From Methanobrevibacter sp. (GTDB lineage: Archaea; Methanobacteriota; Methanobacteria; Methanobacteriales; Methanobacteriaceae): a stretch of 64,000 bases of DNA. Positions 28,859 through 33,755 of this stretch are shown here, one piece after another (within the stretch, counting starts at the first letter, position 1; every line of letters begins with the position of its first letter). Below the pieces are notes generated by a model. That model was not told the DNA's origin, made no database searches, and was given only the letters and a program-made list of their open reading frames with translations. Made by a program: the position numbers and the translations under genes. The DNA lies in contig NZ_SUTM01000010.1 of NCBI RefSeq assembly GCF_015062935.1, forward strand, positions 1 to 64,000, given 5' to 3'.

Positions 28859-30307
28859 CTACAAGTCATAGTGAATGTTGTGAAGCTTATAAAGACATAC
28901 TGAACTGCTTGAAGGGAACGCATAAATCATGTAGTCAAGCTCTTCAAGGGTTATTTTCTTGTTGATTATGAATGCAAACATGTTTGCAACGTTTTCCGCA
29001 TCTGCAGCATATATCTCTGCACCAACAATCTGAAGGTCCTTATCAACAATTACCTTTGCTTCAGCAGTTGTATCGTTTTTAAGCTCAAGTGAATATGAAT
29101 TACCGTATCTGATCTGGTGAACGTCATATTCATCGCTTTTCTCGGCAACATATGCAGGAACTCCCACTGTAGCTATTCTTGGTATTGTAAATGCTACTGC
29201 AGGAACAACAGGATATGTTATTTCATCCGCTTCACCCAGCAATTCTTTTGCAAGGTATTTTGAGTGATGTATTGCAACTGTCACCAGCTTTGGGATTCCT
29301 GTATCTGCAACATCTCCTGAAGCGTAGATATTAGGAACTTCCGTCTGGAGATGTCCGTTTACCTTGACTCCCTTGCTTGTGTATGTAAGGCCGACATTTT
29401 CAAGACCTATGTCTTCAACGTTTGCTGTTCTTCCCATGGCTGCAACGACATAGTCTCCTGTCAGGGTCAGTCCGCTGTCACATTTTACTGTAAACCCGTT
29501 TTCATATGCTCTGTTGTTGATTTTTGCTTCAGGGTCCCTTAAAAATTCATCTGAATTCTGTGCGCTTGTGACGTTCAGTACCTTTTCAGTCGGGTTTTCT
29601 ATTTCAACTTTGCTGATTACTTCATTTACTGTTTGGTTAAAATGGAAACGAATGTTTTTCTCTTTTAAAATCTCAATTACCTTTTCGACATAAGGCTGGT
29701 GGAAGTATTTGAGCGCCATATTGCCTCTAATGATTACATCTGCGCTGTGGCCTGCTTCAGCAAGTATTGATGCGAATTCCATACCTACAAATCCTGCACC
29801 TATGATTATGGCATGTTCAGGAAGCTCATCGATGTCGAGATAATCTGTACTGTCATGGAGATATTCCTTACCTTTAATATCAGGAATTACAGGTTTAAGG
29901 CCTGTGGCTATTACAATCTTGTCTGTTGTGAATTGCTTTTCGCCGACCTGTACGGTGTGTTCGTCTATGATTACTCCTTTTCCGTGGGCAACATCAAGGT
30001 CATATTCCTCGAATTTTCCGTCCAGAAATGGTGCCATGTTGGCTATTCTTTTACGCTTGAATTTCATCAGGCTCGGCCAGTCCACTTCAAAGTTTCCTGC
30101 CTTTCCGACGCCTTCGAAATTATCCGCAAGAGCCTTTATTTCATATGGTGCGTCGAGAAGTGCCTTTGAGTTGCATCCTCTGTTTGCACATGCTCCGCCA
30201 TATAGGCTCTCTTCGATTATCAGTATTTTAAGGCCGGCTTTTCTTAAAAATCGGCCACCCTGCCAAGCGGCATTTCCGCTTCCAATATAAATTACATCGT
30301 AATCCAT
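28859..30307 (-). CDS. FAD-dependent pyridine nucleotide-disulfide oxidoreductase
   Basis: The 482-residue product begins with an FAD-binding motif (IGSGNAAWQGG), has the redox-active disulfide GGACANRGCNS (Cys-x4-Cys), an NAD(P)-binding IIGAGFVGMEFAS near residue 170, and a second FAD contact YASGDVAD near 330. The C-terminal dimerisation domain lacks the usual HPT.EE end of mercuric or lipoamide enzymes and instead ends YAFPSSSSV. GAGGT precedes the ATG. It is a class I flavoprotein reductase, partner not identified; a dithiol or coenzyme disulfide of the methanogen is possible. Confidence 0.88.
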   Translation of the reverse strand: MDYDVIYIGSGNAAWQGGRFLRKAGLKILIIEESLYGGACANRGCNSKALLDAPYEIKALADNFEGVGKAGNFEVDWPSLMKFKRKRIANMAPFLDGKFEEYDLDVAHGKGVIIDEHTVQVGEKQFTTDKIVIATGLKPVIPDIKGKEYLHDSTDYLDIDELPEHAIIIGAGFVGMEFASILAEAGHSADVIIRGNMALKYFHQPYVEKVIEILKEKNIRFHFNQTVNEVISKVEIENPTEKVLNVTSAQNSDEFLRDPEAKINNRAYENGFTVKCDSGLTLTGDYVVAAMGRTANVEDIGLENVGLTYTSKGVKVNGHLQTEVPNIYASGDVADTGIPKLVTVAIHHSKYLAKELLGEADEITYPVVPAVAFTIPRIATVGVPAYVAEKSDEYDVHQIRYGNSYSLELKNDTTAEAKVIVDKDLQIVGAEIYAADAENVANMFAFIINKKITLEELDYMIYAFPSSSSVCLYKLHNIHYDL

Positions 30308-30510: not shown

Positions 30511-30669
30511 CTAAAATTTATCGACAAATTTGGATATGCTGTTCCAGCTTACCCGTGACGGGTCCATACTTTTTCGGATATTGCTTGTGAAGTTATCCGC
30601 CTTTCTGTTGGAGAGTGGATTGTTTTTGATATAGTTCAGGTTTTTTGATGACCTTTTGAATTCGCTCAT
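30511..30669 (-). CDS. 52-residue basic protein downstream of the HTH-repeat protein
   Basis: The frame from ATG 30669 (MSEFKRSSKNLNYIKNNPLS) to the TAG at 30511-30513 has a GAGGT site five bases upstream and follows the 1,022-residue gene by 17 bases. It is rich in Lys, Arg, Asn and Ser, with no Cys. Codon use is like the neighbours. No family is recognised; a partner of the upstream protein is a fair guess. Confidence 0.55.
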   Translation of the reverse strand: MSEFKRSSKNLNYIKNNPLSNRKADNFTSNIRKSMDPSRVSWNSISKFVDKF

Positions 30670-30686
30670 GATTACCTCAAACATTC

Positions 30687-33600
30687 TCATTTTGACATTG
30701 ATATAGGCACTATTGAAATGCCCTGATTTGCCTTAAAGGCCTTTTTTAGAAAGCCAAATTCATCCATATCCTCATTTTTAAAGGTGTTGATCATTAAATC
30801 TGAGCCGCCAAGGATGTCTGCAATCTCATCTTGTGTAATTTCATCGGCAGTGATGGCTTTTGAAGGATTGATGTCTATCAAATCGAGTAGACCGTGTTTT
30901 TTCCATATCTGATATTCCTCTGAGCCGAGATCTTTTTTAAGCTTTTTGTTGATGAGATTTTTAGGCATTCCGTTTACCCTTGCATGGTTGAAAATGATTA
31001 CCCTTGGAATGATGACGCCTATTTCAAATATCAGTCCGAACTCCCTGTATTTATGCTCCCCTCTTCTGGCTTTAAAGTACCATTCATACATATCTGAAAC
31101 GTCAACGCCTATGCTTTTTGCAAGTTTTGTTCCTGTTGAGCGGAACCTGTCGATTTCATCGGCAACTATTTCAACCCTTTTAGCAAATACTGTATCCTCT
31201 ATGAATTCCTGATTGGATTTGAACTCATCAATGCTTAGCCTGGAGTTTTTAAGTGCAATCTTATGTGATTTTTTAGACAATACTGATTTGACATATTTGT
31301 CTATTTTAATTGCAAGAAAAGCATCATAAAACCATTTGAAGTTCATGTTTCCTGATTTGCCAAGCATATAGTAATAGTTCAATTCCATCTGGTTCATCCT
31401 TGAGTTTTTAAGGGATTTGTTGAATGTTTTTGTTTTTATATCCTCCAAAAAGACTGAAAGAAGTTTCGGCACAACCTCATGTTCATAGAGGTTTTTCAAT
31501 TTTTCAAAACCTACAAAACCGTTTTTGCCAAGAGTTAAAAACTCATCGATTGTTTTAAGGGGAATATCATATATTTCTGAAACTTCATTTTTTGATTTCA
31601 TGTCTAAAAATCCCTGAATGACAAGTTCCTTTTCCAGATTGTCTATTCGTTTTTTAAACTGCCAGTACAAATCATATTCAATGTGTCTAAGCCACCTGTC
31701 AATGATTGAATTTGAAAGCCCTACACTTTTGGCCGCATCAGGTCTGTTTTTTCCGTTCTTTCTCTCTTCAATATACTTTTCCATCAATAGCTTTGTTGTA
31801 TTGAGATAGAATTCAGTGGAATTGCTTGTGGCTATGAAACTGTCCTGGTCTTTGATATACCATTCGTTGAACTGCCTTTGGGATATTTCGCTCAGCCTGA
31901 TCGCATTGTAGAAATCATGATTTTTTAATAATTTGACAAAAAGCCTTTTCCTGTTTTCCGCATATTCCCTGTCAAATCTCACGTGGAAGTCAGTTTTCTG
32001 GAATTTGCTTCTGTTGTATATTTCAAGAAATTCCTTTACTGTCAGCTCAGCGGAACTGATTGCATCAGTTTTGCTTTTATCATCCCTCAGGGCATTTATG
32101 ATTTTTCCACGTTTAATCAGGTTTTTGGTAATCTCTTCGTTTTTATTTTCAAAATCTACAAACAGGTCCAGATCATCACGATTCAGCCATGATTTCACCA
32201 TGCTTTTTGGAATGCTTAGGTATTTGAGAATGTCTTTTTTGCTTATGCCCTGCCTTCTGCATTCCAGATATCTCTCCATGAGTATTTCAGTTGTCTTGAT
32301 ATAAAAGTCGTCATGACCTACTTCTCCCAGATAATACCATGAAAAAAAATCATCACGGGTAATTTTACTGATTTTTATGGCCTTATTTAAGTTTTCATTT
32401 TTAAGATGCTTGATGAAGACCTTCTGTCGTTTCAATGTATAGTGCTTGTCGAAATCCTTATGGAATTCATCGCCGGCATTTTTGGATGCCATATAAAGTC
32501 TGTTGAATTCGTTTTCACTTATTCCTACGTTTTTGAATACTTCCCGCAATGTCTTGTTCTTTTTGATTTCATTGATTATGATGAATTTCTTGATTTCACT
32601 TGTCTTTTTTAAAAACTCCTCGCTCATGAAATTGCTGCGCCAGAATTCAAGAACGTCTGGTGAAATGTTCAGCTCGGATGTGATTTTTGCATCGTCAAAG
32701 TTCCTCTTTTTGAGGCTGAAGTATTGCTTTATTAAAAGCTCATTGTATAATATGAATGCATCGTTGAGCTCCCCATGAATGAATGATTCCTTTCTGTTTT
32801 TAAACCAATCCCTGATATTCAAGTCATCCATTGATGAGTTGAGCATGCTTTTTTTGATGTCCTCAATTTTTAGGAGATTTTCTTCAAAGCTTTTTTCAAG
32901 CTTCAGGTTGACAAGGCGGTAGAATTCCATGTAGTTTTTCTGTTTTATTCCACCTTTCCAGTATTCAAGGGTATTTTTTATTTCCTTGGGTGTGATTTCA
33001 TTGCTGTAGAATTTTGTCAAAAGCAGTGCCATTTCTATATACTGGTCGGCTTCATCAAACATTGCATTGAACCTGTCGTCGTTTATATGGTAACTATTTC
33101 CTTTTTTCTGGATTACGTTTTCCTTTGAAAGGTCTATCAGCAGTGCCATCGTTTCGCTTTCACTGAATCCGTATTTGATCAAATCGTTTTTTGTGAAATC
33201 TGAATCTTTGAAAGTGTTTTTTATGCTTAAAAGAATGTTTACATTGTTTATTTTCTGATTGCAGTCATCACACATATTTGAATTTGAGTGTGAGTTTTCA
33301 CATCCGCATATTATGCAGTTTTCAAAGGAAATATCTTCTTTTGAAGGTTTGACATAATCAGGTACGGGAATCTGCTTGTCTGCAAAATCGCTGAAATACT
33401 TTTTGGAGATGTAGTACAGTCTTTGATGCAGGTCATAGGCCAATCTTTCCTCATCTTCAATGTTTTGCTTGCTGTGGATTTTGTTTCTGAGGTTGTATGC
33501 ATCCTGGAGCTTGTTTTTAAATATGTATGATATTGCTCCCTGCCTGTAGAGATTATCTATCTTTTTGTAAAATGAAATCAGATTTTCTGTGATTTTCTTT

Positions 33601-33755
33601 CCAGACCGTCTGTAAATGTCTCCCACCAAGGTTTCAAGAAAAAGTGTTGCATCTGCAGTAACTGCCCTCGGGGAGTTTAAAACATCACTCTCAAGTTTCA
33701 CCCCTATCTCGAAAAGGTCATTGTTGAAGTCCTTTAAAAAATCAAAGTTGGTCAT
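30687..33755 (-). CDS. Large protein of repeated helix-turn-helix-like units, DUF4145-like N-terminus
   Basis: The 1,022-residue product has three parts. Residues 1-125 resemble the DUF4145 helical domain (SPRAVTADATLFLETLV). Residues about 147-165 form a four-Cys zinc knuckle (CIICG and CDDC). From about 180 to 940 there are roughly ten units of about 50-60 residues, each with an A..S..I....W/Y pattern (for example AIRLSEISQRQFNEWY, AIKISKITRDDFFSWYY, KYLSIPKSMVKSWL). Two blocks of about 170 residues, around 425-590 and 595-760, align with one another. I infer tandem DNA-binding HTH units. GAGGTGA precedes the ATG. Function unknown. Confidence 0.65.
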   Translation of the reverse strand: MTNFDFLKDFNNDLFEIGVKLESDVLNSPRAVTADATLFLETLVGDIYRRSGKKITENLISFYKKIDNLYRQGAISYIFKNKLQDAYNLRNKIHSKQNIEDEERLAYDLHQRLYYISKKYFSDFADKQIPVPDYVKPSKEDISFENCIICGCENSHSNSNMCDDCNQKINNVNILLSIKNTFKDSDFTKNDLIKYGFSESETMALLIDLSKENVIQKKGNSYHINDDRFNAMFDEADQYIEMALLLTKFYSNEITPKEIKNTLEYWKGGIKQKNYMEFYRLVNLKLEKSFEENLLKIEDIKKSMLNSSMDDLNIRDWFKNRKESFIHGELNDAFILYNELLIKQYFSLKKRNFDDAKITSELNISPDVLEFWRSNFMSEEFLKKTSEIKKFIIINEIKKNKTLREVFKNVGISENEFNRLYMASKNAGDEFHKDFDKHYTLKRQKVFIKHLKNENLNKAIKISKITRDDFFSWYYLGEVGHDDFYIKTTEILMERYLECRRQGISKKDILKYLSIPKSMVKSWLNRDDLDLFVDFENKNEEITKNLIKRGKIINALRDDKSKTDAISSAELTVKEFLEIYNRSKFQKTDFHVRFDREYAENRKRLFVKLLKNHDFYNAIRLSEISQRQFNEWYIKDQDSFIATSNSTEFYLNTTKLLMEKYIEERKNGKNRPDAAKSVGLSNSIIDRWLRHIEYDLYWQFKKRIDNLEKELVIQGFLDMKSKNEVSEIYDIPLKTIDEFLTLGKNGFVGFEKLKNLYEHEVVPKLLSVFLEDIKTKTFNKSLKNSRMNQMELNYYYMLGKSGNMNFKWFYDAFLAIKIDKYVKSVLSKKSHKIALKNSRLSIDEFKSNQEFIEDTVFAKRVEIVADEIDRFRSTGTKLAKSIGVDVSDMYEWYFKARRGEHKYREFGLIFEIGVIIPRVIIFNHARVNGMPKNLINKKLKKDLGSEEYQIWKKHGLLDLIDINPSKAITADEITQDEIADILGGSDLMINTFKNEDMDEFGFLKKAFKANQGISIVPISMSK

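Follow-up and report, generated by a model that had tools for sequence, protein, structure and literature searches.

A giant Methanobrevibacter protein with a long helix-turn-helix-like array and a probable HEPN head: a possible accessory conflict protein related to BREX/Shango-type modules

Introduction

The gut methanogen Methanobrevibacter encodes, at 30687..33755 (-) of the window (the whole stretch of 64,000 nucleotides of DNA analysed here), a giant protein of 1022 aa in which helix-turn-helix (HTH)-like units follow one another in a long array, and the question that this locus raises is what such an array is for. Tandem HTH proteins have been described with two, three or 'multiple' units (PMC12839542, PMC10293859), and a monomer with ~13 units, built from a repeat of three, would amount to a naturally occurring modular array with a layout similar to that of TALE or PPR proteins, on which a unit-to-base code could be tested. 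The defence systems of rumen methanogens are poorly mapped, and are relevant to any virus-based methane control. We describe here the domains, repeats, relatives and chromosomal site of the giant protein, and propose that it may be a one-protein alarm recognising foreign DNA.

Results

A real gene under purifying selection

The giant open reading frame is a real gene. Its ATG has an upstream ribosome-binding site, TGAGGTGA, its start residue is identical in the full-length orthologues (42-57% identical to it over the full length), and close pairs among its relatives have dN/dS values of 0.08-0.12, showing that members of the family are maintained as proteins by purifying selection. The relatives with names belong to Methanobrevibacter, several of them from ruminant guts. 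The family has a longer form, A, of about 1020-1040 aa, to which the window's protein belongs, and a shorter form, B, of 780-900 aa, which is without roughly one three-unit block of the array; residues R90, H94, C147, C150, C162, C165, Y265, I358, R443, L657 and R665 are invariant in both. The earlier note on this DNA knew of no characterised protein of this build, and our searches agree: no relative was found in a PDB sequence search, and no described family in Pfam, NCBIfam, PHROGs or PADLOC shares it.

The N-terminal head, zinc site and winged helix

The N-terminal domain (residues 1-125; 33381..33755 (-)) is HEPN/DUF4145-like, and in the full AlphaFold2 model residues 12-124 form a four-helix bundle. 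Foldseek matches this head to the HEPN four-helix fold of 2hsb (prob 0.99, TM 0.66) and to the HEPN-MNT structure 8xeh (prob 0.92). The DUF4145-like domain of the earlier note thus stands as a HEPN-type fold and not as a Pfam assignment, the DUF4145 model giving E 0.068 and 13.7 bits, below its cut-off of 23.1, with a best value of 7e-4 in one other family member. HEPN RNases carry the motif Rx4-6H with a polar residue after the arginine (PMC3710099), whereas the giant protein has R-N-x-I-H (R90 and H94), an Rx3H that is one residue shorter than the published motif. The R and H are nevertheless invariant, an N directly follows the R, and Rx3H is present in most family members; Rx4H is present in some divergent members, in a DndF-linked head and in UvrD-linked heads. 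HEPN is the probable identity of the head, which would then be a likely RNA-cutting (RNase) domain. Three solo HEPN-head-like genes also lie in tandem at another locus (L071 7032-8241), and the conserved His is lost in at least two of these.

The head is followed by a zinc site, C147xxC150 ... C162xxC165 (33261..33317 (-)), whose four cysteines are invariant in forms A and B and bear out the zinc knuckle that had been proposed. Residues 163-225 (33081..33269 (-)) are modelled by AlphaFold2 as a winged-helix domain of three helices and a beta hairpin, which Foldseek matches to MepR/LmrR (prob 0.97) and NCBIfam to winged-helix Sul7s (E 0.007).

An array of tri-helical units in a three-unit repeat

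The array occupies residues 275-955 (30891..32933 (-)) and consists of ~13 tri-helical HTH-like units, as assigned from repeats, AlphaFold2 and HTH_23 matches. Two aligned blocks of ~170 residues had been noted, and profile self-comparison of 14 orthologues using ungapped 80-residue matches confirms them, the best match pairing residues 397-476 with 556-635 (offset 159, score 132) and the second 482-561 with 647-726 (offset 165). The maxima in shuffle controls were 18 (200 single-column shuffles) and 45 (200 shuffles of 18-column blocks) against the real score of 132; a repeat arising from chance or composition is therefore ruled out, and the suspicion that the blocks align only by chance did not survive. 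Block 1 contains units U3-U5 (residues 378-529; 32169..32624 (-)) and block 2 units U6-U8 (residues 530-693; 31677..32168 (-)), and their corresponding units align in hhalign with probabilities of 98% (U3/U6), 99% (U4/U7) and 99% (U5/U8). Further pairs also align (U2/U5 98%, U6/U9 95%, U3/U4 95%, U4/U10 94%, U10/U11 85%), weaker copies flank the blocks on both sides (84-98%), and lesser offsets of 53, 106, 322, 375 and 428 fall close to multiples of ~53 residues, the length of one unit. Three-unit blocks recur every ~160 residues in the protein; the three-unit repeat is thus longer than the two noted blocks, which are its two best copies.

The full AlphaFold2 model has a pLDDT of 82 and a pTM of 0.42, at which the relative placement of units is uncertain, and contains long-short-medium tri-helical units spanning residues ~276 to 955. 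The earlier count of about ten HTH-like units was right as to the type of unit and low as to their number, which is ~12-13 in this model. Structure prediction, suggested earlier as a check, gave a clear outcome, since three units folded alone reach a pLDDT of 93.8 and a pTM of 0.84, their nine helices following the expected pattern, and the units have the short turn between helices 2 and 3 that is expected of an HTH. Pfam HTH_23 matches residues 665-691 of the giant protein with E 9e-5 and 22.6 bits against a cut-off of 24.6, and among 22 family members HTH_28 matches seven and HTH_23 four, the matches in several members lying near or above threshold. HTH_28 is above its cut-off in the relative at locus L100 (E 8.5e-9).

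Whether the array reads DNA is less certain than its fold. A serious rival explanation, although an unlikely one in our estimate, is that HTH-fold units have been multiplied for shape, and that the array serves chiefly as a helical scaffold for proteins or RNA, a complex organiser rather than a DNA reader. The units are nearly neutral, their third (recognition) helices have net charges of -2 to +2, about zero, and many form-B proteins are acidic, as would suit a scaffold. Foldseek with the whole model returned mostly unrelated alpha-solenoids, for which reason the three-unit model was searched; it gave no significant match to a DNA-binding protein or otherwise, and its weak matches were for the most part to HTH regulators and small subunits of terminases. 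However, the units match the profiles of DNA-binding HTHs, the array is preceded by a zinc site and winged helix, and relatives of the array adjoin helicases and ATPases, as described below, all of which speak against a mere scaffold.

Relatives of the head and the array in defence-type loci

The earlier note proposed a link to defence genes and a search for homologues beside them. With the family HMM run on 20 loci, homologous arrays and heads were indeed found in defence-type loci of the same archaea. HEPN/DUF4145-type heads are fused, in Methanobacteriaceae, to the N-terminus of DndF (L108 10609-13035 and L113 7308-9797; PADLOC DndF 9e-177), of BrxL adjoining PglZ (L111 8811-12443; PADLOC BrxL 5e-257), and of UvrD/RecB-like proteins (L101/L102). 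Proteins of 870-1686 aa contain zinc/winged-helix/HTH stretches, with E values as low as 3e-30, and these HMM matches, at 12-99 bits, are not low-complexity artefacts, as shuffled or reversed decoys reach 8.9 bits at best.

In seven loci (L099, L100, L103-L107) the array is clustered with a BrxD/SngB ATPase (PF10923 E 6e-96; PADLOC BrxD 3e-76, SngB 7e-67) and a BrxHI/SngC helicase, and each of the six strong PF10923 (BrxC/D) genes of the genus lies within ~5 kb of an array, with an Lhr-type helicase. Other arrays adjoin SMC-like ATPases and helicases, or UvrD-PDDEXK proteins. The array proteins of the seven loci also have repeats at the C-terminus (FAWVxKxGxxWxYxR...WGVRDLxKA) and, at the N-terminus, an undescribed domain.

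A DUF1232 gene of 137-149 aa is a recurrent neighbour. In the genus 17 of 19 such genes adjoin an array protein, which in 12 cases is form B, usually in divergent orientation, and a DUF1232 gene also adjoins the array in several BrxD clusters and at the DndFG locus. The remaining two (L126 6457-8770 and L127 7788-10118) adjoin a protein of ~630 aa in an SMC-like ATPase/helicase cluster. This protein has a different tandem repeat, GxFxSLxEAxxxRDELxxNxW.

The clusters of BrxD/SngB, BrxHI/SngC and array in Methanobacteriaceae, usually with DUF1232, may represent a Shango/BREX-like system that has not been described before. Beside the window's form A there is no BrxD, helicase or DUF1232 gene, and its genome contains no PF10923 gene and no DUF1232 gene of the array-paired type; this copy has thus lost, or never had, a DUF1232 neighbour.

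Distribution and chromosomal site

Family matches are present in 31 of 67 Methanobrevibacter genomes, and by hand count form A is in 16 of the 67 and form B in ~22, fragments included. Because the genomes are largely metagenome assemblies, absences are weak evidence. Both forms occur together in eight genomes against ~5 expected, which is uninformative as a signal of co-occurrence. Across the phylum, a profile search found many related arrays and a single full copy in a second genus of the family, and a thin sampling of other archaeal phyla, with 115 genomes of one of them, turned up no family member. Nor was any found in phages, plasmids or viral contigs, which speaks against an origin there, though weakly, given the thin coverage of archaeal viruses. 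The window's own genome also has form-B pieces at two contig ends (L032, G000:C22 1-976; L033, G000:C13 1-385); the first comes after a TnpB-like fragment, and an IS605-type element may interrupt this copy.

Seven genomes without form A were compared at its site, and most keep the flanking genes in the same order (UDG, secreted protein/YkgJ-like, MFS/MarR, oxidoreductase), the rest keeping part of it; form A is thus accessory, and its site is fixed. Csm6-type genes (PF09670) occupy this variable site in three genomes (L057 3926-5200, L059 14788-16077 and L037 4722-6011). Adhesin-like genes are also found there in several genomes, on both sides of the gene, and together with the fixed position and the strong purifying selection this could indicate a chromosomal regulator or DNA-organising protein controlling nearby adhesin-like surface-protein or oxidoreductase genes. 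We regard this as improbable, since the distribution is accessory, the neighbours vary among genomes, relatives lie in defence-type operons, and a HEPN head with invariant R and H would have no obvious role in such a regulator.

The small downstream gene

A small open reading frame at 30511..30690 (-) encodes 59 aa from an ATG that overlaps the stop of the giant gene, or 52 aa when read from an internal ATG located 17 bases further along, and had been taken for a 52-residue partner. The reading frame exists, but the partnership does not hold. Homologues in five genomes (E 8e-7 to 0.02) all adjoin a HIRAN/TPR-like gene and a pyridine nucleotide-disulphide oxidoreductase, which in the window lies at 28859-30307, and in the three genomes that have form A on the same contig the homologue is 8-11 kb from the giant gene. 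The small protein is thus a conserved gene of the oxidoreductase neighbourhood, and a role as antitoxin or partner is ruled out. With the homologues at L084-L088 it forms a small basic protein family with the consensus YxTFYxxKDINYQxNNPLDTxxAxxxxxNI....

A selfish or addiction-like HEPN toxin, with the array autoinhibitory and the antitoxin unlinked or absent, would accord with the frequency of HEPN domains as toxins (PMC3710099) and with the accessory distribution of form A, but is very improbable, as there is no conserved linked antitoxin gene, the small gene being unlinked and DUF1232 absent beside form A.

Discussion

The reading that we prefer, and to which we give a little short of an even chance, is that the giant protein is a stand-alone reader and HEPN accessory conflict protein, probably antiviral or anti-mobile-element, related to BREX/Shango-type modules. 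The zinc/winged-helix/HTH array would dock on an extended tract of DNA (or nucleoprotein) that is most likely not normally present in the cell, and the HEPN domain, silent until then, would cut RNA and so stop growth or viral expression. The array would then be a reader of the type that is coupled to BrxD/SngB and BrxHI/SngC at other Methanobrevibacter loci, and the head would be of the type that stands before DndF, BrxL and UvrD-type helicases at others.

Several observations favour this reading: the fold and repeats of the array with the invariance of R90 and H94 and the structural match of the head to HEPN; the heads on DndF, BrxL and UvrD-type proteins and the arrays encoded with BrxD, Lhr-type helicase and DUF1232; and the accessory status of form A at a site that is empty elsewhere and is shared in some genomes by a Csm6-type gene. 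Caution is advised by the roughly neutral recognition helices and often acidic form-B proteins, by the Rx3H motif, by the lack of the usual partners in the window, and by the lack of family members in phages, plasmids and viral contigs.

A broader proposal, which we offer as speculation and think unlikely in its full extent, is that Methanobrevibacter has swappable long DNA readers, made of head-to-tail tri-helical HTH units or, in sister loci, of other tandem repeats, and often accompanied by DUF1232, which would be plugged into a BrxD/Lhr helicase, Dnd-type restriction, an SMC-like ATPase/helicase or a fused HEPN RNase, with unit order setting the target. Together with the HEPN-array fusion, the operon of BrxD, helicase, array and DUF1232 suggests that rumen methanogens have a branch of archaeal immunity not yet described.

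Comparison with known systems

The unit profile is similar to that of the phage terminase small subunit and homeodomain-like HTHs (HTH_23/HTH_28), and the Sf6 terminase small subunit is among the weak fold matches, but in those proteins each chain has a single HTH, and arrays form through oligomerisation. BrxA, PglZ and other BREX components (PMC12839542) also have tandem tri-helical HTH units, likely target readers in defence; theirs number two to three, with no three-unit higher-order repeat, compared with ~13 in the giant protein. The TnsD/TniQ target selectors of Tn7 share the order of a zinc finger and then several HTH domains, and TnsD-like proteins guide insertion to the target site (PMC10293859); the giant protein differs in having many more units and a HEPN head, and neither a TniQ match in Pfam nor a transposase among the neighbours examined was found.

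BrxD-BrxHI of type 2 BREX and SngB-SngC of Shango (PMC12839542, PMC10250203) resemble the pairs encoded with array relatives, although it is distant relatives, at the seven loci, and not the window copy that have both BrxD/SngB and BrxHI/SngC. These loci differ from BREX and Shango in having a giant array and DUF1232 in third place, no model for TerB (SngA), PglX or PglZ having matched the neighbours scanned, and type 2 BREX has been reported without archaeal members (PMC12839542).

HEPN/DUF4145 proteins, namely HEPN-headed DUF499 ATPases and DUF4145-restriction fusions (PMC3710099, PMC12839542), share with the giant protein an N-terminal HEPN fold, a conserved R and H, and a DNA-handling body. 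Here the body is a zinc/winged-helix/multi-HTH array rather than an ATPase, helicase or endonuclease, and the motif is Rx3H. The HEPN heads on DUF499 ATPases are read as backup, last-resort RNase effectors, and are the closest published logic to the reader and effector proposed here (PMC12839542).
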